Assembly: GCA_945921355.1 (NCBI GenBank)
Contig: CAMEKM010000003.1
Coordinates: 38,451-102,450, forward strand
DNA from: an uncultured Bacteroidales bacterium
GTDB lineage: Bacteria > Bacteroidota > Bacteroidia > Bacteroidales > Paludibacteraceae
DNA length: 64,000 bases
Direction: 5' to 3'
Positions 7,159 through 28,262 of this stretch are shown here, in pieces. The position numbers and the translations under genes were made by a program. Position 1 is the first letter of the stretch. Every line of letters starts with the position of its first letter. Below the pieces are notes generated by a model. The model saw only the letters and a list, made by a program, of their open reading frames with translations, searched no databases and was not told the DNA's origin.

Positions 7159-7169
7159 AACTATCCGTT

Positions 7170-9131
7170 TTAATCATCTAATTCTTCATATACAGAGTTC
7201 TTGCTCTTAAATTCAGGTACAATTTGCTTCATCAACTTCACTGTAGGAAATACTTTGCCATCTTGCGCCAACTTAATCAATGATTCGATTTGCTCTGCCA
7301 CTTCCTGATAATCATACTCTCGTACTTTCGCAACAAGAATTTTCTTATGCTTTGTTGGAATAGTTGTTTCTTTCTGATTCAGCAATTCTTCATATAACTT
7401 TTCACCAGGACGCAAGCCCGTATATGTGATTTCGATGTCCTTACCAGGCTCAAAACCAGCTAAACGAATCATATTCTTTGCTAAATCTGCAATCTTAACT
7501 GGTTGCCCCATATCGAAACAGAAAATTTCACCGCCATTACCCAAGGTTGCTGCTTCTAACACTAAGCAACTTGCCTCTGGTATTGTCATAAAATAGCGAA
7601 TAATGTCAGGATGAGTTACAGTTACAGGTCCACCCGAAGCAATCTGTTTCTTGAAATAAGGTACCACCGAACCATTACTACCTAACACATTGCCAAAACG
7701 TGTGGTAATAAATTTTGTACAATCTGCATCATCTTTTGCCTTTTGCAAGAATAGTGATTGAACATAAATCTCTGCGATGCGCTTCGATGCTCCCATCACG
7801 TTTGTTGGATTCACTGCTTTATCAGTAGATACCATTACAAAACGTTTCGCTTTGTATTTAATTGCCATATCTGCGACATTCTTAGAGCCTTGCACGTTAG
7901 CTAATATCGCTTGCGCCGGGAAATCCTCCATCAATGGCACATGCTTATAAGCTGCTGCATGAAACACAACATGAGGATGATACTCCTCAAAGACCTCTTC
8001 TACCATATCCACATTTCTCACATCCGCAATTACTGGTACAAATTGCTGATTAGGAAACTCTTTGCGCAAATCAACAGTCAAATCATGCAGAGGTGACTCT
8101 GCCATTTCGAATAGAACGATTGTCTGTGGTTTGAATGCTGCCACTTGGCGTACAATTTCGCTACCAATACTACCCGCAGCACCCGTTACCATCACCGTTT
8201 GGTCCTTCAAGATGGTTACTACATTGTCCGTATCAATATCAATAACAGGACGTTCCAACAAATCTTCTACCCGAATAGACTCTATACGCCCCACAACGCG
8301 TTCTGTATCATCAAGAGACTGATTGTTGATTATATCAAAATCAGTAAAATGAGGAGTAGTTAGAATTTGAATTTTATTATCTATAAAAATTTTCAAATCC
8401 TTCATTGGATTAATTTCTTTCATCTTGATTGGAGAAACAATCACATATTTAATATGATTTTTCTTCATCATATCAATCATATCTTGACTCAGTTTATACA
8501 CTTTCAATGTGAGCAAACTATGATGAGCATCATCATTTTGGTCAGCAATAAAACCTACAGGACGATATTTACTATCCATATTTGACTGTAGCATTTTTGC
8601 GATAGATAACCCTGCCGATTTTGTGCCATATATCAACACTTTTTCTACACCTCTCGATGTATGTGAAATATGTTCGAAAACGGTTTTAATAGTCACTCGC
8701 CAACCAAACAACAACGTTATTGCGACAAAGATATATATAACTAAAATGGACGTTAAGAATGGTGGATTAGAAATATCCGTACTATATTTGATAGTTAGAT
8801 TGACTATCAACAAGACAATCCCCGTCACACCTACTGAACATGCAACCTTTAATGTATCAACAAAAGTAGAATAGCGCAAGATACCTGAATATGTATGAAA
8901 CGCCCAAAAAGATAGTGTCTGCAAACCAACCACAGCCATAGCTTGTTCCCACAATGGCAAACGCATAGTTAAGTCATAGGTTAATAATTCACTACCAATC
9001 AAATAACTTACTACAAAAGCAATCAACACGATTAATAAGTCCAATAACAGCACTCCCCAACGAGGAAGATACCCTATGTTGATCCAATGTGAAAACATAT
9101 CAGTTTTTAATATTTCCAGATTTCGTTTCAT
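7170..9131 (-). CDS. wbpM: UDP-GlcNAc 4,6-dehydratase, membrane-bound WbpM/PglF type
   Basis: Inner-membrane enzyme that makes UDP-4-keto-6-deoxy-GlcNAc, the precursor of QuiNAc4N/bacillosamine-type sugars. The 653 residues start with four membrane segments (about 27-46, 65-85, 98-112, 127-147) and a first nucleotide-binding fold. The catalytic Rossmann domain begins at GAAGSIG (317-323). The usual YxxxK is replaced by MxxxK in NVMGASKR, preceded by STDKAVNPT, as in WbpM and FlaA1. Neighbouring aminotransferase, acyltransferase and phosphoglycosyl transferase genes form a Pgl-like set. It is expected to feed the priming sugar. Confidence 0.92.
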   Translation of the reverse strand: MKRNLEILKTDMFSHWINIGYLPRWGVLLLDLLIVLIAFVVSYLIGSELLTYDLTMRLPLWEQAMAVVGLQTLSFWAFHTYSGILRYSTFVDTLKVACSVGVTGIVLLIVNLTIKYSTDISNPPFLTSILVIYIFVAITLLFGWRVTIKTVFEHISHTSRGVEKVLIYGTKSAGLSIAKMLQSNMDSKYRPVGFIADQNDDAHHSLLTLKVYKLSQDMIDMMKKNHIKYVIVSPIKMKEINPMKDLKIFIDNKIQILTTPHFTDFDIINNQSLDDTERVVGRIESIRVEDLLERPVIDIDTDNVVTILKDQTVMVTGAAGSIGSEIVRQVAAFKPQTIVLFEMAESPLHDLTVDLRKEFPNQQFVPVIADVRNVDMVEEVFEEYHPHVVFHAAAYKHVPLMEDFPAQAILANVQGSKNVADMAIKYKAKRFVMVSTDKAVNPTNVMGASKRIAEIYVQSLFLQKAKDDADCTKFITTRFGNVLGSNGSVVPYFKKQIASGGPVTVTHPDIIRYFMTIPEASCLVLEAATLGNGGEIFCFDMGQPVKIADLAKNMIRLAGFEPGKDIEITYTGLRPGEKLYEELLNQKETTIPTKHKKILVAKVREYDYQEVAEQIESLIKLAQDGKVFPTVKLMKQIVPEFKSKNSVYEELDD

Positions 9132-9184
9132 AATCTCAGTATTTATGTATTTGACACACTCTCTCCAAAAAGGCTGAAGAATCT

Positions 9185-10459
9185 TTATCGAATAATTGCA
9201 GATTTGATAGTCTCTACAATGTAGCGAACATCTTCATCCGATACGTATGGTCCAGCAGGCAAGCACATTCCCACTTTAAATATTGCTTCGCTTATTCCAT
9301 TCACATATGCTGGTGCATTCTTATAGACTGGTTGCTTGTGCATTGGCTTCCAAACTGGGCGTGCCTCAATCTTTGCATTGAGCATATATACGCGCAGGGC
9401 TTCTACGTTATCATTTGGCTGACAATCAGTTACTGCGGTATCTACAGCGTGAATTACACCCGCTGCACCACCTACGGCTGTTTTGATAACTTCTTTATAA
9501 GCATTCTCTTGGCCTTTGATGCGCAAAGTAGGGTCTAATTCGATAGTACATAACCAGTAGTTGGAATCATAGTTCTCTGATGGTGCTTTATGTACTGTAA
9601 CTCCCTCTACATCAGCGAGTAATTCTTCATAAAGTGCTTGCACATGCTTGTGATGAGCAATGTGATCGTTTGCGATAGTCATTTGTCCATGACCAATGCC
9701 CGCACAAATATTAGACATGCGATAGTTATAACCTACCTCCTCATGTTGGTAGTATGGATATGCTTCGCGTGCTTGAGTGGCATACCACATTACTTTATTC
9801 TTCAGTTCAGCATTTTCGCAGACTAATGCACCGCCTCCAGATGTGGTAATCATCTTATTGCCATTGAAGGAAAGCACACCAAACTTGCCAAAAGTACCCA
9901 ATACTTGTCCCTTGAACTTAGAGCCAAAGCCTTCAGCTGCATCTTCAATCACTGGAATGTCGTATTTCTTTGCTACTGCCATGATGCGCTCGCAATCATA
10001 TGGCATACCATATAAGGCCACAGGTACGATTGCTTTTGGTTTCTTGCCTGTTTTCTCGATACGATCTAAGATGGCTTTCTCCAACAGCTCTGGGTCCATA
10101 TTCCACGTATCTGGTTCAGAATCAATAAATACGGGTGTTGCACCAAGATATGTAATCGGATGGGACGAAGCACAGAATGTGAACGATTGCACACATACCT
10201 CATCACCTGCTTTCACACCGCAAGCAATCAAAGCTAAATGTACAGCAGCAGTACCAGCAGAGAGTGCTACGACCTCTTTTTCTTGACCTTGTTGGTCTTT
10301 ACCAACGAATTGCTTGAGATCATCCTCAAAAGCATTTACATTTGGTCCCAAAGGCACTACCCAATTGGTGTCAAATGCCTCTTTGATATATTTCTGCTCT
10401 AATCCCTCGTCTGACATATGTGCCAAACAAAGGTAAATCATTTTTCGTTCGTTACTCAT
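9185..10459 (-). CDS. pglE: DegT/DnrJ/EryC1 family nucleotide-sugar aminotransferase (PglE-like)
   Basis: PLP-dependent aminotransferase of 424 residues that would aminate C4 of the 4-keto sugar made by the WbpM-type dehydratase. The cofactor lysine is Lys202 in SFNGNKMITTSGGG, and VIEDAAEGFGS holds the PLP-pairing Asp. Length is slightly above the usual 370-390. It sits between the pglC-like and wbpM-like genes on the same strand, 53 bp before wbpM. Amination at C3 is an alternative for this family, but the dehydratase and the PglC partner favour C4. Confidence 0.88.
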   Translation of the reverse strand: MSNERKMIYLCLAHMSDEGLEQKYIKEAFDTNWVVPLGPNVNAFEDDLKQFVGKDQQGQEKEVVALSAGTAAVHLALIACGVKAGDEVCVQSFTFCASSHPITYLGATPVFIDSEPDTWNMDPELLEKAILDRIEKTGKKPKAIVPVALYGMPYDCERIMAVAKKYDIPVIEDAAEGFGSKFKGQVLGTFGKFGVLSFNGNKMITTSGGGALVCENAELKNKVMWYATQAREAYPYYQHEEVGYNYRMSNICAGIGHGQMTIANDHIAHHKHVQALYEELLADVEGVTVHKAPSENYDSNYWLCTIELDPTLRIKGQENAYKEVIKTAVGGAAGVIHAVDTAVTDCQPNDNVEALRVYMLNAKIEARPVWKPMHKQPVYKNAPAYVNGISEAIFKVGMCLPAGPYVSDEDVRYIVETIKSAIIR

Positions 10460-10504: not shown

Positions 10505-11113
10505 TTAGTTTGTCCCATCAAAAGTAGGTGCAGTCGCTTGTCCTTCTGTAGAAATGTCTTTGCGATGTAGCACATTATTAATGGTCATGAAAATAATTTT
10601 CAAATCCAATGCAAAAGATACGTGATCCACATACCACACATCATATTCAAATTTCTTGGTATGAGTGATGGTATTGCGTCCATTAACTTGTGCCCAACCC
10701 GTTATACCTGGACGTACCTCATGACGTCGCATCTGTGTAGGGGTGTAAAGTGGAAGATACTTGACGAGTAGTGGGCGGGGGCCAATAAGAGCCATATCCC
10801 CTTTGAGTACATTGAATAGTTGTGGCAACTCATCCAATGATGTAGAACGAACAATGCGACCAACTTTGGTAAGGCGTTGTGCATCAGGTAATAGTTTGCC
10901 ATCAACATCTCGCTCATCGGTCATGGTTTTGAATTTGATTACGCGAAATACCTTGGCATCTTTACCTGGTCGCTCTTGTGTAAAAAAAGCCCCTGCTCCT
11001 TTGTTGGCAAAATATAACCAGATTGTAATAACCACTAATATGGGTGATAGGCATAATAATGCTATCAATGCTATACAGAAATCAATTAATCGTTTGAAGA
11101 AATGTTTATACAT
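10505..11113 (-). CDS. pglC: Phosphoglycosyl transferase, PglC/WcaJ small-domain type
   Basis: Monotopic membrane enzyme that moves a sugar-1-phosphate from UDP-sugar to undecaprenyl phosphate, starting repeat-unit assembly. The 202 residues show the N-terminal re-entrant helix (about 10-33), the FRVIKFKTM stretch and the catalytic Asp94-Glu95 in TSLDELPQL, then GPRPL. It has the minimal catalytic domain, without the long N-terminal membrane region of WcaJ. Its start overlaps the preceding acyltransferase by 8 bp. Given the neighbours, the substrate is probably a UDP-4-acylamino-6-deoxy-GlcNAc. Confidence 0.92.
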   Translation of the reverse strand: MYKHFFKRLIDFCIALIALLCLSPILVVITIWLYFANKGAGAFFTQERPGKDAKVFRVIKFKTMTDERDVDGKLLPDAQRLTKVGRIVRSTSLDELPQLFNVLKGDMALIGPRPLLVKYLPLYTPTQMRRHEVRPGITGWAQVNGRNTITHTKKFEYDVWYVDHVSFALDLKIIFMTINNVLHRKDISTEGQATAPTFDGTN

Positions 11114-11525
11114 CTTGTATTTTTCCGTTGTAAACTCGAATGTTTGTTTTTATTACTTTTGCAGGATTACCTACGGCAATGCAATTGTCAGGAATATTTT
11201 TAGTGACTACAGAACCACTACCAATAACCACTTCATTGCCAATTTTTACTCCTGGCATAATAATGGCATTAACTCCAATGACGCAATCTTTACCGATATA
11301 CGTATCCACTCGCAAACTGCGACAATGGTCATGCGCCATGACAAAAGCGCCGTTTAATACCCATGTCCTGTCTCCAATATGTACACCTTGGGGATTAACG
11401 CTTTTGTCTAGATGTGCTTTGTGTGCTATACGAATTCCCGCACCTAAATCCATTTTGTACACTTTACGCAGAAAAGCTGGGTAGGCATTGGTGACAATTG
11501 TCCATATCTTGCTTCGTAGGCTCAT
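11106..11525 (-). CDS. Hexapeptide-repeat acyltransferase
   Basis: Small cytosolic acyltransferase of 139 residues with left-handed beta-helix hexads such as IGKDCV, IGVNAI, IGNEVV and a terminal AVGNPAKVIK. It resembles WcaF/maltose-acetyltransferase-type O-acetyltransferases. It lies 4 bp behind the KAS III-like gene and overlaps pglC, so it is a genuine member of the operon. It may O-acetylate a sugar or move the acyl chain made by the neighbouring enzymes. The PglD-like protein at 16087-16716 is a second candidate for that step. Confidence 0.8.
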   Translation of the reverse strand: MSLRSKIWTIVTNAYPAFLRKVYKMDLGAGIRIAHKAHLDKSVNPQGVHIGDRTWVLNGAFVMAHDHCRSLRVDTYIGKDCVIGVNAIIMPGVKIGNEVVIGSGSVVTKNIPDNCIAVGNPAKVIKTNIRVYNGKIQDV

Positions 11526-11529
11526 AACA

Positions 11530-12594
11530 TTATATTTCTATCAATTCAGGAATGATGACGTTATTTGCTGTTATGAGCATAGTTCCCCAGCTGAGCCCAA
11601 GCCCAAAAGAAGAGCATAACATCTTGATAGGTTGATTGTTACGCATTGGTTCTGCAATACGAGTAACCATCAAAGATGGAATACTTGCTCCTCCAAGATT
11701 ACCGAATTCCTCCAAATCGTATGGCACTTTTTCTGTTGGGAGTTTGAGTTTCTTGACTACTCGATCAACAATCAACTTGTTGGCTTGATGAATCAAGAAA
11801 TAGTCAATGTCGGTATTGACATCAATATTGTAGTCATCTATCATTTGTTGGATTGACTTTGGCGGACGTGAGATGGCGAAAGTCAATACGGACATTCCAT
11901 CAATCAATGTGTCTTTTGGAGCACGGATAATGCCATTGCCAAAATCCTCTTGGATAAATGATTCTGGTGTAATGCGATTGCGGAAACCTCCATGAGGGGT
12001 CATTAGCGACTTGTGTCCACTACCCAGTGTTTGGAAATCGATTATAATATCTTCTGCAGATGTGTCGTACTCCAAAGCAATAGCTGTACCACAATCACCG
12101 AAGAGTGGAACACGACTTTTATCTTGTTGCGACCCCATACGTAAGGCGGTATCTCCTACAAGTAATAGTGCACGATGAATATTGCCAGATGAAAGCATGT
12201 TGCCAGCCACATTGATGGCATATAATGTACCACAACATCCCATAGGCAAGTCAATGCAGAAGCAGTTGGTGGATAACCCTAAGCGGTCTTGCAAGAGACA
12301 TGAGGTAGGTGGTGTGGGATAATAATCGCCTGTAACCGATTCAAAGACAAGCATATCAATGCTGTCTTTTTCCCAGCCCATATCTGCTAACAGTTTTTCT
12401 GCTGCGGCTTGGCACATGTCCGATGCGCACAGGGTCTCGGGTCCAATTCGGCGCTCTCTAATGCCTACGGTATTGTCAAATACAGTAGCTTCTTCTGGTG
12501 TAAATAATGGAATGTCTGCTGTCTTGACAATATGTTTTGGCATACAAGCACTCACACCAGCCAATCGTACATTTTTAATAGTCCAACGAGCCAT
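11530..12594 (-). CDS. 3-oxoacyl-ACP synthase III-like ketosynthase
   Basis: Condensing enzyme of the FabH fold, 354 residues. The Cys-His-Asn triad can be read as Cys120 (PMGCCGTLYA), His269 (LIHQANK) and Asn299 (EFGNLGGAS). It would extend an acyl-CoA or acyl-ACP by a malonyl-ACP-derived C2 unit. It differs from housekeeping FabH in length and in the PMGCCG active-site sequence, where the canonical residue after cysteine is Ser. It is followed upstream by an ACP and ligase, so a dedicated function in making a sugar-bound acyl group is inferred. Confidence 0.85.
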   Translation of the reverse strand: MARWTIKNVRLAGVSACMPKHIVKTADIPLFTPEEATVFDNTVGIRERRIGPETLCASDMCQAAAEKLLADMGWEKDSIDMLVFESVTGDYYPTPPTSCLLQDRLGLSTNCFCIDLPMGCCGTLYAINVAGNMLSSGNIHRALLLVGDTALRMGSQQDKSRVPLFGDCGTAIALEYDTSAEDIIIDFQTLGSGHKSLMTPHGGFRNRITPESFIQEDFGNGIIRAPKDTLIDGMSVLTFAISRPPKSIQQMIDDYNIDVNTDIDYFLIHQANKLIVDRVVKKLKLPTEKVPYDLEEFGNLGGASIPSLMVTRIAEPMRNNQPIKMLCSSFGLGLSWGTMLITANNVIIPELIEI

Positions 12595-12609
12595 ATTGGG
12601 GTAAAAGTA

Positions 12610-12849
12610 TTAAAGTTCTATTCCGTTTTTAATAAGAATCTCTTTGCCTGCATTGTAACTGGTGCAAGCCATAATGTCCTCAGGATCAAGCATGAGGTCA
12701 AAGGTTTCTTCGAGCAAGGAGATAATGTTCAGTTGGTGAACAGAATCCCATTCGCTAACAGTATCTTTGCTGTAGTTGTCACCTAATTGCTGAGGTGTTA
12801 CACCGAATACTTCGGTAAAAATAGCGTTGAATTTCTCTAAGTTTGTCAT
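12610..12849 (-). CDS. Acyl carrier protein (first of two in the locus)
   Basis: Acidic 79-residue carrier protein. The phosphopantetheine serine is Ser36 in SEWDSVHQLNIISLLEE, with the usual DS core. The C-terminal helix ends in KNGIEL. It lies 15 bp ahead of the ketosynthase start and probably presents the growing acyl chain to that enzyme and to the two ketoreductases. The 114-bp gap between it and the ligase gene (12850-12963) holds no recognised gene. Confidence 0.88.
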   Translation of the reverse strand: MTNLEKFNAIFTEVFGVTPQQLGDNYSKDTVSEWDSVHQLNIISLLEETFDLMLDPEDIMACTSYNAGKEILIKNGIEL

Positions 12850-12963
12850 ATGATTTAGTTATTTATATCGTATAAATGTGCCACAGATGTGTTCTTATGA
12901 ACCCGTCAATAACCCGTAATCAGCAGCCAATTTGCGGTCAAGTGATGGAGGGTGTGGTGGCAA

Positions 12964-14361
12964 TTAATTTATAGGTAGTTTACTATATAGTTTTTTTCCT
13001 GCTTCGTTTTTGGGTATTTCATCAATGACACGAATCTGGAATGAAGTGGCAACAATATGTGTTTTTTGCACGAGTGTGTCTTTGACATCATTTTGTTTGT
13101 CTGCATTAGTAATATAGACGAGCATTTTTTCATCCGTACCTACGCAAGCACACTCAATCCCGCAGTCTGTTTGTACGATTTGTTCGCATTCATCTAGTCC
13201 GACACGCATGCCAAAGAGTTTGAGGAATCGTCCCATGCGACCAACGATGTAGTAACAACCATCTTCGTCAAAGTAAGCAAGATCGCCTGTTCGAATATAT
13301 CCATCGCGTTCGTCTCCTAACGCCAGATCCGCTTGCTCGCGAGCATATCCCATTGTAACATTTTTGCCACGATAGCACATCTCGCCTTCGGTATGAGGCG
13401 TAGTGATAGGGTTACCGTCCGTGTCAATAAGTGATAATTCGCCATTAGGAACTGCAATGCCGATACTTCCAACCTTCTCTAGTGCCCATTTCGCAGGAAG
13501 ATACGCCATGCGTGCGGTGCATTCAGATTGACCATAGGTGGCTATCCAACGTTTGCCATTGTCGCGACAATACTCTGCAAACTTAATATTGAGATCAGCT
13601 GGCATTTTTCCTCCACCTTGTGTAAGTAGCTCCAAATGAGGGAGGTCCATGCGGAAGAAACGCATAAGATTGAGAATCTGAAAACTATATGGAACACCAG
13701 TAAAGGATGTGGCTTGTTGTTCTTTGAGGAACTTCCAGAAATTAGGGTCTGTCATACTCAATCCTGTGATGAGAATGGTTGCTCCTACTCGTAAGTGACT
13801 GAAGACCATAGATAATCCCATGGTGTAGTAGAGTGGCAAAACCATTAGCGGGCGATCCGTTCCTTTTAAATCGAAGAATGTGGAGATGTTGAGTCCAGCC
13901 GCCTCGATATTGTCGTATTTATGACGAACGAGTTTAGGGCTACCTGTGCTACCTGATGTGGGAAGTAGGTGGGATAGTTCGCTATGAAGAGTTGGCGTAG
14001 TGTCAGATATTTTGGCAAGTGTGTAATCGTATTGACAATCAACGACTTCGCCTTGCACTGCAAAATGATTAGGTGCGCAGATATATGTGGGTTGATAGGT
14101 GTGGAGCAATTGCTGGTATAGTGTGTCTTCCGTCTTGACATTGAGGATAAGTGGTACCAACTGGCGACTATCTAACATGCTCATTACCCATGCAATTCCA
14201 CCTACGTTGTTCTCCACAAGAAGAAAACATAACGAGCGTGTAGGGATGAGTAATGTAATATGCTTTGAGAGTTGGCTAATTTCTGCATAGCGCAACTCTG
14301 CCCCACTGGAGTCAATGGCGACAATGCGTTGTGGGTCAATATGTTGTAAATCTAAAATCAT
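12964..14361 (-). CDS. AMP-dependent acyl ligase loading an ACP or CoA
   Basis: Adenylate-forming ligase of 465 residues. The ATP-binding A3 loop PTSGSTGSPK is at 134-143, YGQSECTARMAY is the A5-like stretch and YIRTGDLAYFDEDG the A7 stretch. The C-terminal subdomain ends in NEAGKKLYSKL with the catalytic lysine in the expected place. It probably activates a short carboxylic acid and loads one of the neighbouring carrier proteins. Its start overlaps the stop of the upstream ketoreductase as TAATG, implying translational coupling. The exact substrate cannot be read from sequence. Confidence 0.85.
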   Translation of the reverse strand: MILDLQHIDPQRIVAIDSSGAELRYAEISQLSKHITLLIPTRSLCFLLVENNVGGIAWVMSMLDSRQLVPLILNVKTEDTLYQQLLHTYQPTYICAPNHFAVQGEVVDCQYDYTLAKISDTTPTLHSELSHLLPTSGSTGSPKLVRHKYDNIEAAGLNISTFFDLKGTDRPLMVLPLYYTMGLSMVFSHLRVGATILITGLSMTDPNFWKFLKEQQATSFTGVPYSFQILNLMRFFRMDLPHLELLTQGGGKMPADLNIKFAEYCRDNGKRWIATYGQSECTARMAYLPAKWALEKVGSIGIAVPNGELSLIDTDGNPITTPHTEGEMCYRGKNVTMGYAREQADLALGDERDGYIRTGDLAYFDEDGCYYIVGRMGRFLKLFGMRVGLDECEQIVQTDCGIECACVGTDEKMLVYITNADKQNDVKDTLVQKTHIVATSFQIRVIDEIPKNEAGKKLYSKLPIN

Positions 14362-15089
14362 TATATGGAAGCGCAGCCATCTACGCCAAGAATTTGTCCA
14401 GAAATATAGTTTGCTCTATCGGAAGCAAGGAACGCGCATGCGTGTGCGATGTCTTCTGGTGTGCCTAATCTACCTAAAGCGATGCGTCCGATGCGAGCAT
14501 CAATCTTTTCGCCATCGCTCTCATAGAGTTCGGCGAAGCGTTCAGTTTTGACGATGCCAGGTGCTACTGCATTAACGCGGATGCCCTGTGCTGCAAGTTC
14601 TTTAGCTGCGGATTTGGTCATTGAGATGATAGCACCTTTTGTTGCAGAATATGCTACTTGACCAGGTGATCCGAGTACCGCAGTCACGGAGGCAATGTTG
14701 ACAATAGAGCCTCCACCGCATCGCGCCATGAGACGACTAACCAACTGAAGCAATTCCATCGCAGCAATAACATTCACGAGGAACATGCGTTCTGTCTCCT
14801 CGCGGGTAATCATGCCTATCTTACGATTGTAAACGATACCCGCATTGTTAACGAGGCAGTCAATGCGTCCTTCGGTTTTGAAGATTTGCATAAAAGCAGT
14901 CTTTACGCTAGTAGCATCGGTGATGTCTAGCACAACAGGATGAATATGCTCGTTGTTAGCAGTGAAGTCTTGTCTATCGCACGCATATACAATGGCTCCG
15001 TCAACAGCAAACTGCTCAGCAATTTGTCGTCCGATTCCTTGTGCAGCACCTGTGATGATGCACACTTTATTTTCAAGTAGTTGGCTCAT
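14361..15089 (-). CDS. 3-oxoacyl-ACP reductase-like SDR (first)
   Basis: NAD(P)H-dependent ketoreductase of 242 residues with TGAAQGIG at 13-20, NNAG near 81-84 and the Ser134-Tyr147-Lys151 triad (YSATK). It is close to FabG in length and in its C-terminal YISGQILGVDG. It is separated by 2 bp from the second reductase and overlaps the ligase start. It probably reduces a beta-keto group on the ACP-bound chain. Confidence 0.86.
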   Translation of the reverse strand: MSQLLENKVCIITGAAQGIGRQIAEQFAVDGAIVYACDRQDFTANNEHIHPVVLDITDATSVKTAFMQIFKTEGRIDCLVNNAGIVYNRKIGMITREETERMFLVNVIAAMELLQLVSRLMARCGGGSIVNIASVTAVLGSPGQVAYSATKGAIISMTKSAAKELAAQGIRVNAVAPGIVKTERFAELYESDGEKIDARIGRIALGRLGTPEDIAHACAFLASDRANYISGQILGVDGCASI

Positions 15090-15091
15090 GA

Positions 15092-15838
15092 TTATGATAA
15101 TGTAAGTCCTCCGTCAAGTTTGATCTCTGTACCAGTAGTCCATGCAGATGCATCAGACAGCAAGTAAATAGTAGCATATGCTACTTCTTCTGGTTTGCCG
15201 TATCGCTTGATTGGATATTGAGCTAAATTAGCATTTTTTTGTTCTTCACTAATAGGAATGTTACTCAGTGCTTCTGTCTCGATCATTGCAGGATTGACGC
15301 TATTGAAACGAATGTTTTTGCTGGCAAGTTCGAGAGCTGCTGAACGCATAAAAGCATCTAGACCACTTTTAGTAACTGCGTAGAGCGCATTAGCCGTAGA
15401 AACGCGATATACTCCAGCTGCAGATGAGATGAATACAACGGAAGAATTCTTTGCTAATTTCTTTCGTTTTAATAGTTGCTTTGTCAATAGAATAGGAGCG
15501 TGTAGGTTGATTTGCTCAAACTCATTGATTTTGGCTTTGGTGATAGCTTGAATGGGGACTAGCCCTAAAATACCAGCACTATGCACACATCCCGTGAGGG
15601 TAGGCAGTTGCTCAACTATAGTAATAATATCTTCTTCAATTGTAATGTCAGCCACAATATATTTGTGTTGCCCCTCTTTTAATTGAGACAACGTCTCTTG
15701 CAATCTACTTTCATTACGTCCTGTAAGAATAATATCGGCTCCTAGTTTACTACATTCTATAGCAATAGTGCGACCGATGCCAGAAGAGGCACCAGTGACA
15801 AGAATTGTTTTACCTATTAGTGCAAAAGGATTATGCAT
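15092..15838 (-). CDS. 3-oxoacyl-ACP reductase-like SDR (second)
   Basis: Second ketoreductase, 248 residues, with TGASSGIG at 15-22 and Tyr153-Lys157 in YAVTK. The NNAG motif is degenerate (HSAG at 86-89), unlike its neighbour, so it is not a recent duplicate. Two distinct reductases next to one ketosynthase would fit two reductions on one chain. Its start overlaps the stop of the second ACP as TAATG. Confidence 0.84.
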   Translation of the reverse strand: MHNPFALIGKTILVTGASSGIGRTIAIECSKLGADIILTGRNESRLQETLSQLKEGQHKYIVADITIEEDIITIVEQLPTLTGCVHSAGILGLVPIQAITKAKINEFEQINLHAPILLTKQLLKRKKLAKNSSVVFISSAAGVYRVSTANALYAVTKSGLDAFMRSAALELASKNIRFNSVNPAMIETEALSNIPISEEQKNANLAQYPIKRYGKPEEVAYATIYLLSDASAWTTGTEIKLDGGLTLS

Positions 15839-16065
15839 TATTGTTTGCTTGCTACAAGATCAAAGAGCTCCTGAATGGTATTAGTTTTGCGCATTTCTTC
15901 AGGAGGAAGAACAATACCATACTCTTCATCAACCATGGTAATTACCAATAATGCCACCAAAGATGTCCATCCTTCCACTTTGCGGAAGTTAGTTTCTGGT
16001 GTCAGTTCTACGTTTAGTTCATCAAATTGATCAGCTACGTTTTGAATAAAAAGTTGAATATCCAT
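15838..16065 (-). CDS. Acyl carrier protein (second), with TSL instead of DSL
   Basis: Carrier protein of 75 residues. The predicted phosphopantetheine serine is Ser35 in VEGWTSLVALLVITMVD; the Asp normally before it is Thr. The surrounding helix and the final LFDLVASKQ support the ACP assignment. The missing Asp may change recognition by phosphopantetheinyl transferase or by partner enzymes. It sits 21 bp behind the PglD-like gene. Confidence 0.82.
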   Translation of the reverse strand: MDIQLFIQNVADQFDELNVELTPETNFRKVEGWTSLVALLVITMVDEEYGIVLPPEEMRKTNTIQELFDLVASKQ

Positions 16066-16086
16066 AATTTTTTGTATTAAAAGTGA

Positions 16087-16716
16087 TTACATTAATTTCT
16101 TTGCGGGGTTCCCCATAACTGTGGTTCCTTCTTTTACCCGACGAATAACAAAACTGCATGCGGCTACTCGTGAGTGGCTTTCTATTGTTACATTGTGGCT
16201 AATCATTGCGGAAGTGTGGATATCAGTTCCATCTTGCACAATTGTTCCGCCAACAAGCGTTACATGCGTATCGATTCTATTCCAGTTTCCTATAACAGAA
16301 TCATGCCCTACTACAGTGTATGATTGAATGAGATTATATTTGCCAACTTTTGCATCTGCCCCAATAGATGTGAATGCACCAACGATGGTGCCTTCTCCAA
16401 TCTGTACATTAGTTCCCAGACGTGCAGTAGCATGAATCATTGTAAGGAATTTTCCACCTCTAACTACAATCTCTTCCATGCATTTTTGTCTACTAGTTCC
16501 TCCTATGGAACAAACAAATACTTCGTCTTCTTGTGGTTGGTAGCCTTGTATAGGAGCAATTATAGGAGGATAATTAGCAAAATTATCTAGTGCTGCTACG
16601 TTGTCATCAATAAATCCACGGATGTCGTATTGTGTGCCATACCCAATACTTTCTCTTGCCATGTCATACATGGTTCTTCCCATGCCTCCTGCGCCTATAA
16701 TAATCAAATGTTTCAT
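16087..16716 (-). CDS. pglD: Sugar N-acyltransferase, PglD/NeuD type
   Basis: Left-handed beta-helix acyltransferase of 209 residues, starting at ATG 16716 with the Rossmann-like MKHLIIIGAGGMG that binds the UDP-sugar. A longer reading would overlap the promoter at 16737-16768. Hexads such as IGEGTIVGAFTSIGADA and the terminal VMGNPAKKLM are visible. In PglD the acyl donor is acetyl-CoA. Here the adjacent ACP/ketosynthase/reductase genes suggest that an unusual acyl chain may be used on the C4 amino group. This is the first gene behind the internal promoter. Confidence 0.87.
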   Translation of the reverse strand: MKHLIIIGAGGMGRTMYDMARESIGYGTQYDIRGFIDDNVAALDNFANYPPIIAPIQGYQPQEDEVFVCSIGGTSRQKCMEEIVVRGGKFLTMIHATARLGTNVQIGEGTIVGAFTSIGADAKVGKYNLIQSYTVVGHDSVIGNWNRIDTHVTLVGGTIVQDGTDIHTSAMISHNVTIESHSRVAACSFVIRRVKEGTTVMGNPAKKLM

Positions 16717-16773: not shown

Positions 16774-17874
16774 TCACTTTGTCAAAGCAGAAAGTAGCAA
16801 ATTTTCTGATTTAGATTTTATTTTATTGTAAAGAGGACGAATATCGGCATAGTTTATTTCGTTAACAGACTTGGGATGAGTTTGATAGTGTTCAGATAGA
16901 TTCATATGCTGTAGTAATGTTTGAACACGATCAGCATTTTTGCTCAGTCCAACTGTAATGAATTGTTTCTCAAAGATAGTTGCAAATGCGGTGCCGTGGA
17001 AGGAGGTTGCTACAACGAATTCAGCATCTCGAATAGCATGCAAGAAATCAATAGGAGATGCATTAGAGATGTGATTTTTTCTAGGTAATGTATGCACTTG
17101 TGCATTCATAATTAGCAAATCACAGTTCATAGATTTAGCTTTCTCTGCAGCAAAAGCCATAGCTTCTTTAGATTGTATAAGTTCGTAGTAAAGTACATAC
17201 TGCTGCTGATGGTACCGTGATTGAGGTAAGAGCTTACTCCACTGCTCTCGTGTGAGTAAGAGAGTAGGATCCAAGACCACATCGGCATCGTAGTTGAGAC
17301 TATTAATGAGCTCTTTAAGACTATTTTCACGAACTAAGATTGTATCGAATGCTTTAAGATATTGTTGGAATAATAGTCGGTCCTGATCATTTAAGGATAT
17401 AATACCCATACTTGCGGCATAGGTAATACAACGAGTTGTTTTGGGGACGTTCTGACAAAAGAACATTGGATCAAATCCAACATATTTGCCTTCGTATTCT
17501 TGTGTTCGCCAAACTTGATCACTACCCACAATAATATAGTCATACAACCCACTCTCAATTTGGGAATGAGGAGATGTATATTTAATTTGTGATTTCAATT
17601 CAAGAAAGTTGGAGGCAAATTGGTTGAATTTTTGCATTCGTATATATCGCCGAATAATCGTTAAGCAATCCGAGATAAAATTTATTATCTTATTGATACA
17701 ACCTGTACCATGTATTGATTTGATTAACACGTACTGTTGTTGATGACTAATGGGCCAATAGTCAATAAATTCGACAGAATGCCCCTGCTCACGCAAAAAG
17801 GTAAGTAGCGCATATGCTTGCAGCATCGCGCCATAATTATGTGCTCGATGATATGTTAGAATTCCTATTTTCAT
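16774..17874 (-). CDS. Polysaccharide pyruvyl transferase family protein
   Basis: Member of the PF04230-type family (366 residues), which adds pyruvate ketals or acts as a glycosyltransferase-like enzyme on surface polysaccharides. The N-terminus ILTYHRAHNYGAMLQAYAL, the mid-protein YIIVGSDQVWR and the later VVATSFHGTAFA are characteristic. Its start overlaps the wzy stop as ATGA. It is the last gene before the internal promoter. Pyruvylation of the repeat unit is the simplest reading. Confidence 0.88.
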   Translation of the reverse strand: MKIGILTYHRAHNYGAMLQAYALLTFLREQGHSVEFIDYWPISHQQQYVLIKSIHGTGCINKIINFISDCLTIIRRYIRMQKFNQFASNFLELKSQIKYTSPHSQIESGLYDYIIVGSDQVWRTQEYEGKYVGFDPMFFCQNVPKTTRCITYAASMGIISLNDQDRLLFQQYLKAFDTILVRENSLKELINSLNYDADVVLDPTLLLTREQWSKLLPQSRYHQQQYVLYYELIQSKEAMAFAAEKAKSMNCDLLIMNAQVHTLPRKNHISNASPIDFLHAIRDAEFVVATSFHGTAFATIFEKQFITVGLSKNADRVQTLLQHMNLSEHYQTHPKSVNEINYADIRPLYNKIKSKSENLLLSALTK

Positions 17875-19076
17875 GGTTGTTCTATTCTTTTTCTTTCTTG
17901 TTCACTCCATCCTACTAGAGTTCCAATACTAATCATAACTAGTACGCAGGTATGACTAAGAATAATGATTGATACTACACTCAAAACGGCAAAGATTGTT
18001 AGGATGGCTGCTAATGCAGGCGCATACGTGTTTTTTTGACGAATTGCTGTAATAGTATATAGTGTGGTAGAACCGAAAAATAAAACGTAGAAGATAAAGT
18101 TGAAAATACCATAATTATATATAATTTCCAAGAAGTCATTATGGGCGGTCAAGTTTTCCCAACTATATTTTGTGGTGGACAGATGTCCGTTACCAAAGAT
18201 CCAAAATTCAAAATCTTGCATGCTCAGTCGTTGAATAAGACCATTCCAGATATCTAATCGTCCTGAACCTGTTTCATCATCCCTATCGGAAAGGCGCTCA
18301 ATGATATTATCTCCTAAGTACTTGATAAGTACATAGAATAGAATTACTAGTACAACCAAAGTGATAAATAGTATGATGGCTGTTTTGAGTCCTTTTTTTG
18401 AGATAAATTGCGATGCTAACAGATATGCGAATAATCCTAAAACGAGAGCAATTAATCCTCCACGTTTGATGGAACTAACAATAATTACAGATACAATCAG
18501 AATGCTAATAACTCGTAACCAACGCTTATCGCATGCTAACATGATAGGTAATAAATACAAAGCATAATATGCTACTCCAAAGTGACCTCTCTCGCCGAGT
18601 ATATTGTATGTCGAATAGATAGAAAAATAGGAATATAGACATGCCAATATTGTTAACATGATGATTACAAAGGTGTCATTTTTCTTTTCATACTGGAATG
18701 CAATGTTGTAGCTGCCCAAGAGTGATAGGAGTGGGGCTATAAATATCAATACATTAGCAATTAATTGTTTGATATTACCAGTATGTGTGACAAATAAGGA
18801 TATACAAGTACCTATTATAAAAATAGTAAACCATTGAAAAAGTTTAGGTGTATTATGTATGGTATGATTGATGTGTTTTTCGCTGAAATACCACCACGCA
18901 CATATAAACCAGACCGCGCAAAAGATTAATCTGATATAGTGAGCATATTGCAGTTCCACTTGCATGGTGTTGTCATCGTTCACAATCATATACATCGTGA
19001 CCATGATATTCACAAAAAATGCAAACATCATATAGGCTTTTTGTAGTGTCTCTTTTGCTATTGTACCATTTCTCAT
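17871..19076 (-). CDS. O-antigen ligase/polymerase family membrane protein (Wzy-like)
   Basis: Integral membrane protein of 401 residues with about ten hydrophobic segments. A large periplasmic loop contains GSGRLDIWNGLIQRL and LTAHNDFLEIIYNYG, a pattern of the Wzy_C/WaaL family (R...HN.xLE). In a locus with a flippase and a PglC-type initiator it is most likely the repeat-unit polymerase. A ligase role cannot be excluded. Confidence 0.82.
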   Translation of the reverse strand: MRNGTIAKETLQKAYMMFAFFVNIMVTMYMIVNDDNTMQVELQYAHYIRLIFCAVWFICAWWYFSEKHINHTIHNTPKLFQWFTIFIIGTCISLFVTHTGNIKQLIANVLIFIAPLLSLLGSYNIAFQYEKKNDTFVIIMLTILACLYSYFSIYSTYNILGERGHFGVAYYALYLLPIMLACDKRWLRVISILIVSVIIVSSIKRGGLIALVLGLFAYLLASQFISKKGLKTAIILFITLVVLVILFYVLIKYLGDNIIERLSDRDDETGSGRLDIWNGLIQRLSMQDFEFWIFGNGHLSTTKYSWENLTAHNDFLEIIYNYGIFNFIFYVLFFGSTTLYTITAIRQKNTYAPALAAILTIFAVLSVVSIIILSHTCVLVMISIGTLVGWSEQERKRIEQP

Positions 19077-19098
19077 TGTATAATGTTATTTGTAATTA

Positions 19099-20442
19099 TT
19101 ATTTAAATCTATTAAAAATACCGACTATTAGGTCTTTCCAACCTAGTATGAAACTATATGTCTGTGTGTAAAAATACGAACGATATGTAGGGATGAATAA
19201 ATGCGAAAAGTAGCCGGTACATATTGCAGTAATCACACTAGCTATCGCAACACCAGTTACTCCATATCGTGGGATTAGCAATAAATTTAGCCCTATACAT
19301 ACGACACAACCTATAATATTGCGAATGACCACATATTTTTGTTTCTTCTCAATAACAATCAATGCTCCTGTGATTTGTGCACTAGCATATCCAATTGTCT
19401 TAAAAATCATTATCTGTAGCAATGTGATCGCTGCGGCGTATTCTGTGCCAAAGGTGTATTCAATTAATGGGCGTGAAATGAGACAAATCACAATGCAGAT
19501 AATGATTGTACCCCATATGGTGATATTCATAAAGGATGCCGATTTTTTCTGGTAATCTTTGAGGTCATTGTGGTATGCTTTTACCAAAACAGGAGTGATT
19601 GTTTGCGCTAAAATAGTGGGGATAAATAGGCATATTTCCGCGAATTTCCCTGCTACTGAGTAGTATCCTACAGCTGTCTTGTCAATCATATTGCCAAGCA
19701 TAACTTGATCAATTTTTTGATATATTACAACCGCCGCTCCGCTGAGCAATAATGGAAATGATTGCTTGATTAGGTATAGGGCTGTCGCTTTGTCAAAGGT
19801 CCAATTGCGAATATTATCAATCTTACTTTTGTATGAAACGATATACCCACTGGCGAGCAAAATAGTGTCAAATAATGTTGATAATATAAACCAGAAAAGG
19901 TCAGCTTGTATGAGTAGTAATGCCACTTTTATACCTGCACCTACTATAGTTCTTGTAATTTCTGTTTTGACAATGTACTCATTCCATACAATAGATGTGA
20001 AATAATTTCGTATTACGCCAAAACTATTCATAATCATGGATAAAGAGTACATAATAATCATCCATCTAGTAAATGTGTCTGCTTCAAATATCCATACACT
20101 GACCACAACCAATAGTATGGTAATAATGGCAAATAGTATTTTCAGAAGAAAGGCAGTACCTATGAGTTTGTTCTTTTCTTCGTTTCTATGTGCTTCTTCT
20201 CTAATCTCAATAGAGTCTAGACCAAAAGAGGCAAATACTTGAAACACTGCGATATAACTAAATACATAATTCATTAGTCCATATTGCTCTGGACCTAAAT
20301 AGCGAGCTACGAATATACCGACTAACAAGCTACCCAATAGGGTCACAATTTTGCCAACAACTGCCCACACCAAATTCTTAACAACTTTTTGTTGAGTTGT
20401 TGAAATATTGAAACGAGAAATTATTTTATTGATTAAACTCAT
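19099..20442 (-). CDS. Oligosaccharide flippase (Wzx-like)
   Basis: MATE/MOP-superfamily exporter of 447 residues with 12 or more membrane segments. The start NLVWAVVGKIVTLLGSLLVG and ARYLGPEQYGLMNY are typical of Wzx proteins that flip undecaprenyl-diphosphate-linked repeat units to the periplasmic face. It lies between wzy and the GT2 gene. Confidence 0.9.
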   Translation of the reverse strand: MSLINKIISRFNISTTQQKVVKNLVWAVVGKIVTLLGSLLVGIFVARYLGPEQYGLMNYVFSYIAVFQVFASFGLDSIEIREEAHRNEEKNKLIGTAFLLKILFAIITILLVVVSVWIFEADTFTRWMIIMYSLSMIMNSFGVIRNYFTSIVWNEYIVKTEITRTIVGAGIKVALLLIQADLFWFILSTLFDTILLASGYIVSYKSKIDNIRNWTFDKATALYLIKQSFPLLLSGAAVVIYQKIDQVMLGNMIDKTAVGYYSVAGKFAEICLFIPTILAQTITPVLVKAYHNDLKDYQKKSASFMNITIWGTIIICIVICLISRPLIEYTFGTEYAAAITLLQIMIFKTIGYASAQITGALIVIEKKQKYVVIRNIIGCVVCIGLNLLLIPRYGVTGVAIASVITAICTGYFSHLFIPTYRSYFYTQTYSFILGWKDLIVGIFNRFK

Positions 20443-20458: not shown

Positions 20459-21436
20459 TTAATGCTTTAATATTTTCATGACCAATGCTAGCATTTTGTA
20501 ACCCCAAGCAATAGGCATAAATCTAAGATATGAAACATGCAATTTATGCTTAATGCCTATGTCCTCTTGGCTCAATTTAGTCAATAATTTTTTTACGCGA
20601 CTATCAGATAGTACTTTATTGATTGTTTGGATGGTCTTAGTATCTGTGAGTTTGTTTCTAAGGTACTTATTGTAGGTGAATGATGTGATGATTTTGAATT
20701 CTGTGAGCAAAAACGATGATGAAGTTGCCCAAGGCAATCGTATGGTGCTAAAATGATCTAGAATATTCAACACCGACAAATCCGCGGCATAGTTAGGATG
20801 ATGAGTGGCACTAGTTTCACGCATTACATAATAATAAAAGCCCGCTTTGATGACAGCCACTTTATTTGCGTGCTCCAGAAATGAAACAGTAAAGTCGTAA
20901 ACTTCACCAGACTTGATGTTTGGATTAAAGCGCAGCTGGTTATTGCGGATAATGGAGGTATTATAAATCAACTTGGGAGCAGTTGGGAAAATATCACACA
21001 TCGCGTATAGCTGATCAATGGTGTACATCCCAGTCTCTAATGAATGTGGCTCTGTATGCGTGGCTTCTATTTGATTTTCAATAATACATGGTGCGATCAA
21101 CGCATCTGCATCTTGCAAACCTTGTGTTATAATATCGATACAATTGGTATGGAGATAATCATCGCCATCAAGACACAATATATAGTCGCCATGTGCAATC
21201 TCTATGCCTGCATTACGCGCGGCAGATACACCCTTGTTAACTTGGGTGATACCTATAGCACGTCTATCATTGCGTACAAAAGTGTCAATGATAGTGCCAG
21301 TAGAGTCTGTAGAACCATCATCAATAAAGATAAATTCACAGTCATCAGCATTTCGCAATTGAGATAGGCTATGGATGGTCTTTGGCAAATATGCCTCAAC
21401 ATTATAACAAGGTATTATGATAGATAAAGATATCAT
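20459..21436 (-). CDS. Glycosyltransferase family 2
   Basis: GT-A fold transferase of 325 residues with SIIIPCYNVEAYL at the N-terminus, IDDGSTDSTG near 37-46 and the metal-binding LCLDGDDYL. It adds one sugar to the lipid-linked repeat unit on the cytosolic face. The C-terminal half is less conserved and gives no acceptor information. Confidence 0.9.
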   Translation of the reverse strand: MISLSIIIPCYNVEAYLPKTIHSLSQLRNADDCEFIFIDDGSTDSTGTIIDTFVRNDRRAIGITQVNKGVSAARNAGIEIAHGDYILCLDGDDYLHTNCIDIITQGLQDADALIAPCIIENQIEATHTEPHSLETGMYTIDQLYAMCDIFPTAPKLIYNTSIIRNNQLRFNPNIKSGEVYDFTVSFLEHANKVAVIKAGFYYYVMRETSATHHPNYAADLSVLNILDHFSTIRLPWATSSSFLLTEFKIITSFTYNKYLRNKLTDTKTIQTINKVLSDSRVKKLLTKLSQEDIGIKHKLHVSYLRFMPIAWGYKMLALVMKILKH

Positions 21437-21440
21437 AGAA

Positions 21441-22649
21441 TCATTTACGATTGTTGGTAATTATTTCTTCAAAAAATTGTTGAATATGTTGTGCTTGTTT
21501 GATATTGCTTTTGTTCTCCAATACAAATTTTTGTGCAGTCATTCCTTTCAGTTGCAGTTCATCGCTTGGGAGCGAAAGAGTTTCTAATAATTTATCTCTA
21601 AAACCTTGTTCACTTTCTTCTTCAAATGTAAATAAATGCGAGTAGTATTCTTCGGGTATTCCGCATAATTTAGTGGTTAATACGGGAGTACCAGATAGCA
21701 TGTATTCTGTCGTTTTGGATGGGAAGGAATATTTTACAAGTTCTTGATTAGACAGGCGTGGATTAACTAATAATGAGGCTTGTTGTTCAGCTTTGATGAT
21801 CTCCTCGTTGCTTACCACTCCCTTGTATTTTATTCTAGCATCTTGTTCTTGATATGCCAGCAATTGCTTGACGAATTTGCCATCCCCATATATATGCAAC
21901 TCAACATCCTTTAGCGGAAGTTCCATAAATGCTTTGAGCAAGGTATCAAAACCATACTCTGCTTCTATTGCACCTGCATACATGACAATACGGGATGTAT
22001 TGGTTGGCAATATTGGCTGAGATTTGAACTTGTGATCCACCGACCCCTCCATCACAATATAGGGTTTTTGCAGTGGATTATATTTGTCGTTCATATATTT
22101 GGTCAAAAACACAAATCCGTCATATTGCTTAATGCTATTTCGCTGGCTACGCACACGCATCTTAAAAAAAATGTTCCACCACCATTTACTGGTGTCTTTT
22201 GCTATTGTCACAGGAGGAGCAATCATGTCGGTGAGCATCATGCATGTAGGTATGTTTAGCAATTTCGCTGCTGCCACACTACCTTTACTGCTGCTGTTGG
22301 CAAAGATATCGCATAATATGATTTTGTCACCTTTTGTTTTTAATGCCCATTTTATCGTATAAATAAATGATGATAGGATGTAAAAAAGTTGGCACACAAT
22401 AGGCACTTGTATAATGGGTAAATAGGTATATTGTATATTCTCAAAGCATTCTTTGTGATGATGCGAGAATATGGCCTGTTCTATAATAATGTTACTTAGT
22501 ACATTTACCTTGCTATTATTATGCACAAATCCTTCTAAAATAAGACGAGAAAACTTAACAATCTGAATGCCAGGATTCTTGCCCGTTTTTTGTATGATTG
22601 TATTTATTGTATGACTAGGGCAACATTTACCCACAAAAAGTATATGCAT
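21441..22649 (-). CDS. Glycosyltransferase family 4 (first)
   Basis: GT-B fold transferase of 402 residues. The N-terminus ILFVGKCCPS is a Rossmann-type beginning; MYAGAIEAEYGFDTLLKAF and YMLSGTPVLTTKLCGIPEE are the retaining GT4 donor-site stretches. It is likely a FucNAc or rhamnose transferase of this locus; which one cannot be decided here. Confidence 0.87.
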   Translation of the reverse strand: MHILFVGKCCPSHTINTIIQKTGKNPGIQIVKFSRLILEGFVHNNSKVNVLSNIIIEQAIFSHHHKECFENIQYTYLPIIQVPIVCQLFYILSSFIYTIKWALKTKGDKIILCDIFANSSSKGSVAAAKLLNIPTCMMLTDMIAPPVTIAKDTSKWWWNIFFKMRVRSQRNSIKQYDGFVFLTKYMNDKYNPLQKPYIVMEGSVDHKFKSQPILPTNTSRIVMYAGAIEAEYGFDTLLKAFMELPLKDVELHIYGDGKFVKQLLAYQEQDARIKYKGVVSNEEIIKAEQQASLLVNPRLSNQELVKYSFPSKTTEYMLSGTPVLTTKLCGIPEEYYSHLFTFEEESEQGFRDKLLETLSLPSDELQLKGMTAQKFVLENKSNIKQAQHIQQFFEEIITNNRK

Positions 22650-22680
22650 ATAATAATTTTTCTCTATATATGTTACACAA

Positions 22681-25091: not shown

Positions 25092-25094
25092 TTT

Positions 25095-26294: not shown

Positions 26295-26296
26295 AA

Positions 26297-28256: not shown

Positions 28257-28262
28257 ATTTTT

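Follow-up and report, generated by a model that had tools for sequence, protein, structure and literature searches.

Two gene modules predicted to build an N-acyl group on two carrier proteins in a probable surface-glycan gene run of Bacteroidales

Results and discussion

Gene content of the locus

Seven genes, all on the minus strand at 11530-16716 of a 64,000-nucleotide stretch from an uncultured bacterium of the Paludibacteraceae (Bacteroidales; contig CAMEKM010000003.1, positions 38,451 to 102,450, assembly GCA_945921355.1; the whole stretch is hereafter the window), encode a PglD-type sugar N-acyltransferase, two acyl carrier proteins (ACP2 and ACP1), two short-chain dehydrogenases/reductases (SDRs; SdrA and SdrB), an AMP-forming ligase and a KAS III-type ketosynthase (KS). 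We treat them below as two modules, a starter module (SdrB, ligase and ACP1) and an elongation and receiver module (ACP2, KS, SdrA and PglD). A sequence-only reading of this DNA had placed two ACPs, a ligase, two different ketoreductases and a KAS III-like ketosynthase between PglD and a PglC/PglE/PglF set, and all were located and found intact, with no internal stop in any of the seven genes. Its claim that several genes are joined by overlapping start and stop codons holds for two junctions, ACP2/SdrA and SdrB/ligase, each pair overlapping by one base, but not for others, with gaps of 2 nt (SdrA-SdrB), 15 nt (ACP1-KS) and 114 nt (ligase-ACP1).

The seven genes belong to a run of 23 genes on one strand, the first being rmlA (29755) and the last pglF (7170), whose strand and spacing suggest a single operon (Table 1). 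Three sugars can be read from these genes, L-rhamnose, L-FucNAc and a 2-acetamido-4-amino-2,4,6-trideoxyhexose, an assignment for which we rely on gene families and on what we take to be their pathways; RmlB was not found within the run. Among 61 genomes of the genus, the seven-gene order is kept in 9 of the 14 that bear the ligase, window included, and for every one of the seven, pN/pS between the window and a relative (locus L051; comparison loci carry the prefix L) is 0.04-0.16, which looks like the effect of purifying selection; on both counts the set goes beyond a chance assembly.

Table 1. Features of the glycan gene run, the seven acyl-line genes first.
Feature	Position	Strand	Evidence
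PglD/VioB-type sugar N-acyltransferase, receiver half	16087..16716	-	PglD_N and Hexapep over cut-off
ACP2, carrier protein of elongation/receiver half	15838..16065	-	PP-binding over cut-off; W-x-S serine
SdrA, 3-ketoacyl-ACP reductase-like classical SDR, GRN motif	15092..15838	-	Pfam/NCBIfam; YxxxK site
SdrB, classical SDR of starter half	14361..15089	-	Pfam; Asp38
AMP-forming ligase, 465 aa, predicted to load an acid on ACP1	12964..14361	-	AMP-binding 131 bits
ACP1, carrier protein of starter half	12610..12849	-	PP-binding E 0.0017, below cut-off
KAS III-type ketosynthase, ligase-linked clade	11530..12594	-	ACP_syn_III and ACP_syn_III_C over cut-off
Small hexapeptide acetyltransferase, probably O-acetylation, outside conserved core	11106..11525	-	Hexapep
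PglC-type initiating sugar-phosphate transferase	10505..11113	-	Bac_transf 210 bits
PglE-type 4-aminotransferase	9185..10459	-	DegT/DnrJ/EryC1 292 bits; LegC-family NCBIfam best, below cut-off
PglF-type UDP-GlcNAc 4,6-dehydratase	7170..9131	-	Polysacc_synt_2 and CoA_binding_3; NCBIfam below cut-off
Polysaccharide pyruvyl transferase family protein	16774..17874	-	PF04230 122 bits
Wzy-like polymerase and Wzx-like flippase	17871..20442	-	Wzy_C; Polysacc_synt
Three glycosyltransferases	20459..23913	-	
FnlC-, FnlB- and FnlA-type genes, UDP-L-FucNAc set	23898..27346	-	Family models
RmlD, RmlC and RmlA, dTDP-L-rhamnose set without RmlB	27363..29755	-	All three over NCBIfam cut-off

Active sites, carriers and ligase fold

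Residues that we take, from general knowledge of the families, to be catalytic are kept almost without exception; row counts for them, and for the SDR motifs below, include genome copies, a few genomes being counted twice. C120, H269 and N299 of the ketosynthase are each kept in 70/71 rows, the ligase lysine K456 and four further motif residues in 98/98, and PglD His138, whose counterpart in both VioB and LpxA alignments is a histidine, in 46/46; the solved chain nearest to PglD is VioB (7txp, E 1.4e-22). The W-x-S serine is invariant in all 13 carrier rows, ACP1 and ACP2 included. ACP1 taken by itself is a weak case (no Pfam match at E 0.001; its PP-binding score is 19.0 bits, cut-off 20.8), but when 13 carrier rows were scanned (10 ACP1-type and 3 ACP2-type), 12 matched PP-binding. 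One candidate for a fused ketosynthase, the 481-aa P0178, was set aside as probably an assembly fault: it repeats one of its own stretches.

SdrA and SdrB are both classical SDRs, 30% identical to each other. The GRN motif of SdrA is presumably of the NADPH type, and Asp38 of SdrB lies at a position which we take usually to favour NAD(H). Asp occupies this position in 27 of 38 ligase-adjacent SDR rows versus 15 of 89 other SDR rows. The structure model of the ligase (mean pLDDT 88.6) has a clear adenylating-enzyme fold, for which benzoate, MenE, oxalate, DltA, PltF and other enzymes tie as matches, so the structure says nothing about the substrate. Between the window and L038, L050 and L077, ligase residues 1-118 are 38-42% identical versus 79-82% for residues 119-376, and 24-29 of the first 118 residues of the window ligase have no counterpart in these three.

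Each module occurs without the other

Presence or absence of a ketosynthase or ligase was scored within stretches of at most about 20 kb, in comparison genomes that are mostly metagenome assemblies. The SdrB-ligase-ACP1 trio occurs without a ketosynthase in the stretch in L083 (SdrB, ligase and ACP1 79, 49 and 56% identical to those of the window), L090 (73, 66 and 59%) and L093 (66, 64 and 62%). A GNAT-family gene adjoins the trio in L083, and PglD directly precedes it in L090 and L093. The genome that holds L083 (G082) has no KAS III match anywhere; for L090 and L093 the search covered the locus stretch only. Since relatives 66-79% identical to SdrB stay with ligase and ACP1 where the stretch has no ketosynthase, SdrB is unlikely to be a second ketoreductase on the ketosynthase product: the proposal that both reductases act on that product is thus improbable for SdrB, which goes with the ligase half.

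Ketosynthase loci without a ligase in the stretch number 13, five of which (L039, L041, L045, L049 and L078) carry PglD, ACP2 and an SDR; no PglD match was found within the stretch in the other eight. A ligase and two ketosynthases can also share one locus, as in L043, L050, L091, L105 and L157; L091, from the cultured Bacteroides timonensis, additionally carries PglD, both ACPs and both SDRs. Among the named ligase loci, which are the best 80 of 587, genome copies included, and thus give tallies that are not a census, read with profiles built from the loci of this study, a ketosynthase lies within 4 kb of the ligase in 13/15 at ≥55% ligase identity, 11/34 at 45-55% and 4/31 at 35-45%, and LuxE lies within 2.5 kb in 0/15, 16/34 and 21/31 of the same classes. 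The ligase family is therefore wider than its union with the ketosynthase. At least 5 of the 28 ligase-plus-ketosynthase loci among these 80 (L109, L111, L113, L117 and L157) are, judged by their record titles, outside Bacteroidales.

The ligase-adjacent SDRs of L068, L070 and L073 were rejected as SdrB orthologues: they are 41-44% identical and have other cofactor motifs, so these loci hold analogous trios only and are not counted as ketosynthase-free cases. In L070 and L073 the ACP-SDR-ligase trio lies in polysaccharide clusters, with no ketosynthase in the stretch, and is followed by LuxE (in L070 also by a LuxC-like gene). Another cluster of large frames, conserved within the phylum, contains a recurring ACP-ligase pair 22-32% identical to that of the window (L071, L072, L074, L075 and L076).

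Replacement of the starter block and SdrA alleles

L043 and L050 represent two species of the genus. Near-identical flanks enclose a block of about 3 kb in which they differ: one flank, 95.0% identical over 8,436 bases, ends five bases beyond the stop of sdrA, and the other, 94.3% identical, begins at the start of pglC and spans 7,814 bases. The block is ks-acp1-lig-oat in L043 and sdrB-lig-acp1-ks of the window type in L050 (sdrB 79%, ligase 63-68%, acp1 63% and ks 73-74% identical to the window), and the two blocks gave no BLASTN match to each other at E 1e-10. Outside the block, the loci share PglD, ACP2, a second ketosynthase and SdrA at 96-100% identity.

SdrA itself occurs in two divergent allele classes (window, L032, L033, L034, L036 and L077). 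Window and L032 are 41% identical over SdrA residues 47-206, though their ACP2 is 100% and their SdrB 93% identical; likewise, L033 and L034 are 45% identical here, though 94% in SdrB. The two classes may reflect an exchange of specificity or stereochemistry.

Ketosynthase clades and distance co-variation

In a quick tree built under a simple model from 71 KS rows, three housekeeping FabH included and identical rows removed, the window ketosynthase falls in a supported clade of 27 rows, 27/27 of them ligase-linked. The label starter-linked or elongation-linked changes twice over the 53 rows that bear it, the starter label set against all other rows changes four times where shuffled labels give a mean of 24.1, and the two ketosynthases of one locus sit in different clades in L043, L050, L091 and L105.

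Distances were compared in 24 loci where PglD, ACP1, ACP2, ligase and KS lie close together, L084, L085, L087 and L089 being left out as copies of included genomes. PglD distances track ACP2 (partial distance correlation 0.42, 0/999 permutations) and not ACP1 (-0.10, 895/999), and ligase distances track ACP1 (0.75, 0/999) and not ACP2 (0.02, 415/999).

Proposed assembly of the acyl group

The sequences show directly the genes and their order, the intact catalytic residues, relatives of each module standing alone, the replaced block and the co-variation of each carrier with its own partner; the direction of flow and the product are our inference. We predict that the two modules together assemble, on two carriers, an acyl chain that is short and probably hydroxylated, likely to be placed on the C4 amine of a UDP-diamino sugar for a surface polysaccharide, a reading to which we give a probability of roughly 0.6. 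In the starter module, SdrB would make or reduce a small acid, which the ligase would activate with ATP and load as starter on ACP1. Malonyl would be carried by ACP2, presumably supplied by housekeeping FabD, and the ligase-linked KAS III would condense the ACP1-borne starter with malonyl-ACP2 in one extension. SdrA, with its NADPH-type motif, would then reduce the 3-keto group to a 3-hydroxyl, and PglD would take the resulting 3-hydroxyacyl group off ACP2 and attach it to the amine of the sugar. One or two rounds by the ketosynthase had been envisaged in the sequence-only reading; as the single ketosynthase belongs to the ligase-linked clade, one extension of a loaded starter is favoured, and repeated rounds from acetyl-CoA are disfavoured.

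The product is likely of the 3-hydroxyacyl class with a further hydroxyl from the starter, a C6-type dihydroxyacyl group being likeliest: a 3-hydroxybutyrate starter would give 3,5-dihydroxyhexanoyl, and a 4-hydroxybutyrate starter 3,6-dihydroxyhexanoyl. That it is 3,5-dihydroxyhexanoyl itself we regard as doubtful.

Several points weigh against this reading. On the KS tree the starter label as a whole needs four changes; 15 of the 71 rows, of unclear context, carry the label 'other'; for up to six loci the starter-linked label was assigned manually, on the ground that KS and ligase adjoin; L111 and L113 have ligase-linked rows that fall outside the clade, in a region of long branches; and any clustering is inflated by near-copies. 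The co-variation may be due partly or wholly to linkage, because PglD and ACP2, and ligase and ACP1, are mostly neighbours. PglD scores 149 bits with the NeuD/PglB/VioB family model, below the curated cut-off of 160.8. PglD is 61% identical to that of the window in L090 and 56% in L093, where there is no ACP2 and it must act without one; it is thus not strictly ACP2-bound, and homologues of PglD seem able to work with ACP1 as the sole carrier nearby. An SdrB-type gene is missing from two genus loci, L040 and L043, that do have ligase, ACP1 and KS, so some loci do without SdrB, and the argument from its cofactor is soft, because the SDR of the ketosynthase-free L093 has an Ala-Arg motif, unlike the Asp of the window, and Asp also occurs in the 15 of 89 SDR rows that do not adjoin a ligase. 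Finally, our search found no glycan structure or enzyme assay for this organism.

Relation to known systems

The PglF-PglE-PglD enzymes of Campylobacter jejuni form a diamino-sugar pathway with functions in the same order as here; the donor of PglD there is acetyl-CoA, and to our knowledge the pathway has no carrier-protein line. C. jejuni PglD N-acetylates, as cited in the available part of PMC6519341.

The O-antigen locus of Flavobacterium psychrophilum (wfpC-G, R1 pathway) offers a comparison with a known structure: in the accessible text (PMC6519341) the solved glycan has 3,5-dihydroxyhexanoyl on N4, a group credited there, by predicted gene functions, to an ACP, two ketosynthases, one reductase and a PglD homologue. 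The same three sugars are implied by the genes of the window, L-Rha, L-FucNAc and a diamino sugar (Qui2NAc4N in F. psychrophilum), and Wzx/Wzy, a PglD homologue, a dedicated ACP, a ketosynthase and a reductase are likewise present. The F. psychrophilum set has one ACP, two ketosynthases and one reductase, with no ligase named in that text, whereas the window has two ACPs, one ligase-linked ketosynthase, two SDRs and a ligase. According to what is available of the literature, 3,5-dihydroxyhexanoyl on N4 of this sugar is also found in Vibrio cholerae O3. The viosamine island of Pseudomonas syringae (vioS, vioR, acp, vioB) likewise pairs a KAS III-type synthase, a reductase and an ACP with a VioB-type transferase; as described in the part available (PMC3927599), it places 3-hydroxybutanoyl on a dTDP sugar for flagellin, with seven genes, one ACP, one reductase and no ligase. 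Deletion of vioR there removes the modified sugar, which is genetic support for the reductase of such a set. A dedicated ACP line for a hydroxyacyl group on C4, as the sequence-only reading had it, would thus fit both the gene run and, so far as the accessible accounts go, these two precedents (PMC6519341, PMC3927599), and its function here is predicted by analogy.

The window also recalls sets in which ACP, SDR and ligase are adjacent, sometimes followed by LuxE and LuxC. Such a trio is present in the glycan island of Aeromonas flagella glycosylation group II, which in the available text (PMC7874193) has LuxE and LuxC and no ketosynthase named, whereas the window has a ketosynthase and no LuxE; L070 matches the group II kinds (ACP, 3-oxoacyl-ACP reductase, AMP-dependent synthetase, LuxE and LuxC). 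Adjacent genes for a phosphopantetheine protein, an AMP-dependent synthetase and a 3-oxoacyl-ACP reductase are also found in the Yersinia ruckeri O1 locus, where the accessible rows list the trio as common to O1 strains only and include no ketosynthase (PMC5552943); the glycan there, according to the available part of PMC10174560, has a nonulosonic acid. A 4-hydroxybutyryl group may also be present in that glycan, but the literature searched did not mention it, and no argument here depends on it.

With the ligase-free wfp/vio-type pathway the window shares a PglD/VioB-type transferase beside a 4-amino-sugar pathway, an ACP, an intact Cys-His-Asn KAS III and a reductase. That pathway has no ligase and a single ACP; because a ligase and a second ACP are present here, the window is a variant and not a member of it. 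The chemistry is known, and the two-module, ligase-loaded build appears new as a variant: in the open-access literature searched we found neither a ligase-loaded starter with KAS III on two carriers, nor a two-module build, nor the block replacement. The only paper returned for any four or more of ketoacyl-ACP synthase, ACP, AMP-dependent synthetase, O-antigen and capsular polysaccharide was PMC6519341, without the AMP-dependent synthetase in its available part. As the search was limited to open access, this is weak evidence of novelty.

Alternative readings

The alternative that survives best, though unlikely, is that two acyl groups are made in parallel, ligase, ACP1 and SdrB serving one amine or hydroxyl and KS, SdrA, ACP2 and PglD another. 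It accounts for relatives of each half occurring alone and for each ACP having its own partner by distance; it is at odds with the ligase-linked KS going with ACP1, not ACP2, in gene order and block replacement, with the absence of an ACP2-linked KS from the window, and with the presence of one PglD-type acyltransferase only, besides the small hexapeptide protein. Ranked next, and improbable, is that the ligase supplies the extender, putting malonate on ACP1 in the manner of MatB, with the KS primed by acetyl-CoA and a product that would be plain 3-hydroxybutanoyl or 3,5-dihydroxyhexanoyl. MatB structures are among the Foldseek matches of the ligase, and ligase-free relatives, like the P. syringae viosamine island as far as its available description goes, manage with ACP, KS and reductase; one extension of a ligase-loaded starter remains our preferred reading.

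We find it hard to credit that the ligase loads an amino acid to give an aminoacyl or acylated aminoacyl product. DltA, PltF and HitB share its fold at equal Z, but the ligase stretch LPLYYTMG, which stands at what we take to be the place of the amine-binding Asp in amino-acid enzymes, aligns with the PLFH stretch of feruloyl-CoA synthetase. In favour of such a product, N-acyl-alanyl groups are known on 4-amino sugars, from the available part of PMC3210612.

A probable accessory line

Least probable is that these genes serve to make a lipid, or to modify membrane fatty acids, and that their place among the glycan genes is accidental: they resemble FabH, FabG, ACP and acyl-CoA ligase, and the window KS is the sole KAS III (PF08541) match in its own assembly (82% complete), but 36 of the 61 genus genomes, many of them incomplete, have no such match, one FabF-type gene (PF02801) and a better-scoring ACP lie about 1 kb apart on another contig of the same genome, and 13/13 other ligase-bearing loci of the genus have pglC-, pglE-, pglF- or Wzx-like neighbours. 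Action on membrane fatty acids, which the sequence-only reading had named as the case that would overturn it, is disfavoured by the genus-wide count and by the FabF-type gene and ACP on the other contig. PF08541 is matched in 25 of the 61 genomes, and 14 of 26 better-quality ones gave no match to it. Since 36/61 are without a match, membrane lipid formation in the genus seems not to depend on KAS III; the genus seems, from its sequences, to be without a housekeeping FabH, and the gene set of the window looks like an accessory line. The genome has one holo-ACP synthase domain match. The neighbours of the window KS are ACP1 and the hexapeptide acetyltransferase, not YceD as in the relative L029; the FabH-like genes of L024 and L025 adjoin hexapeptide transferases and not YceD.

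Exchange of blocks and its consequences

A wider proposal, which we offer tentatively, is that two-module assembly on two carriers forms a combinatorial mini polyketide system, in which a starter block (SdrB, ligase, ACP1 and its own KAS III clade) would dock on a receiver block (ACP2, reductase and PglD), the chain passing from carrier to carrier. By exchanging the starter block and the substrate half of the reductase as units, bacteria might obtain new N-acyl groups, and possibly new stereochemistry, by block exchange alone. If so, N-acyl groups on the surface sugars of gut Bacteroidales would come from small exchangeable assembly lines, and strains could change their surface by swapping a gene block. 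In F. psychrophilum, N-acyl groups go with antigenic differences, according to the available text of PMC6519341. The named kin of the window bacterium come from animal guts. Pairs of loci in which a module is missing or replaced each predict that one named block alters the acyl group and little else, and together the genes would offer a compact and tractable case with two carriers, in which a KAS III receives a starter loaded by a ligase.

Neighbouring genes

In the FucNAc set, FnlA- and WbcJ-type models rank top but below cut-off, and a wecB-type 2-epimerase is just over its cut-off. Pfam gave no LuxE or LuxC match in 20 of the 23 proteins of the run; for the other three, the rml proteins, the scan was against NCBIfam alone. 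In L051, a glycosyltransferase gene (8042-9256) stands where the window has the small hexapeptide acetyltransferase. On the same strand, ftsY (window 6196-7170) starts 11 bases past the pglF stop, so that read-through from the glycan run may reach an essential gene; in L051, too, pglF is closely followed by a frame, of 320 aa.

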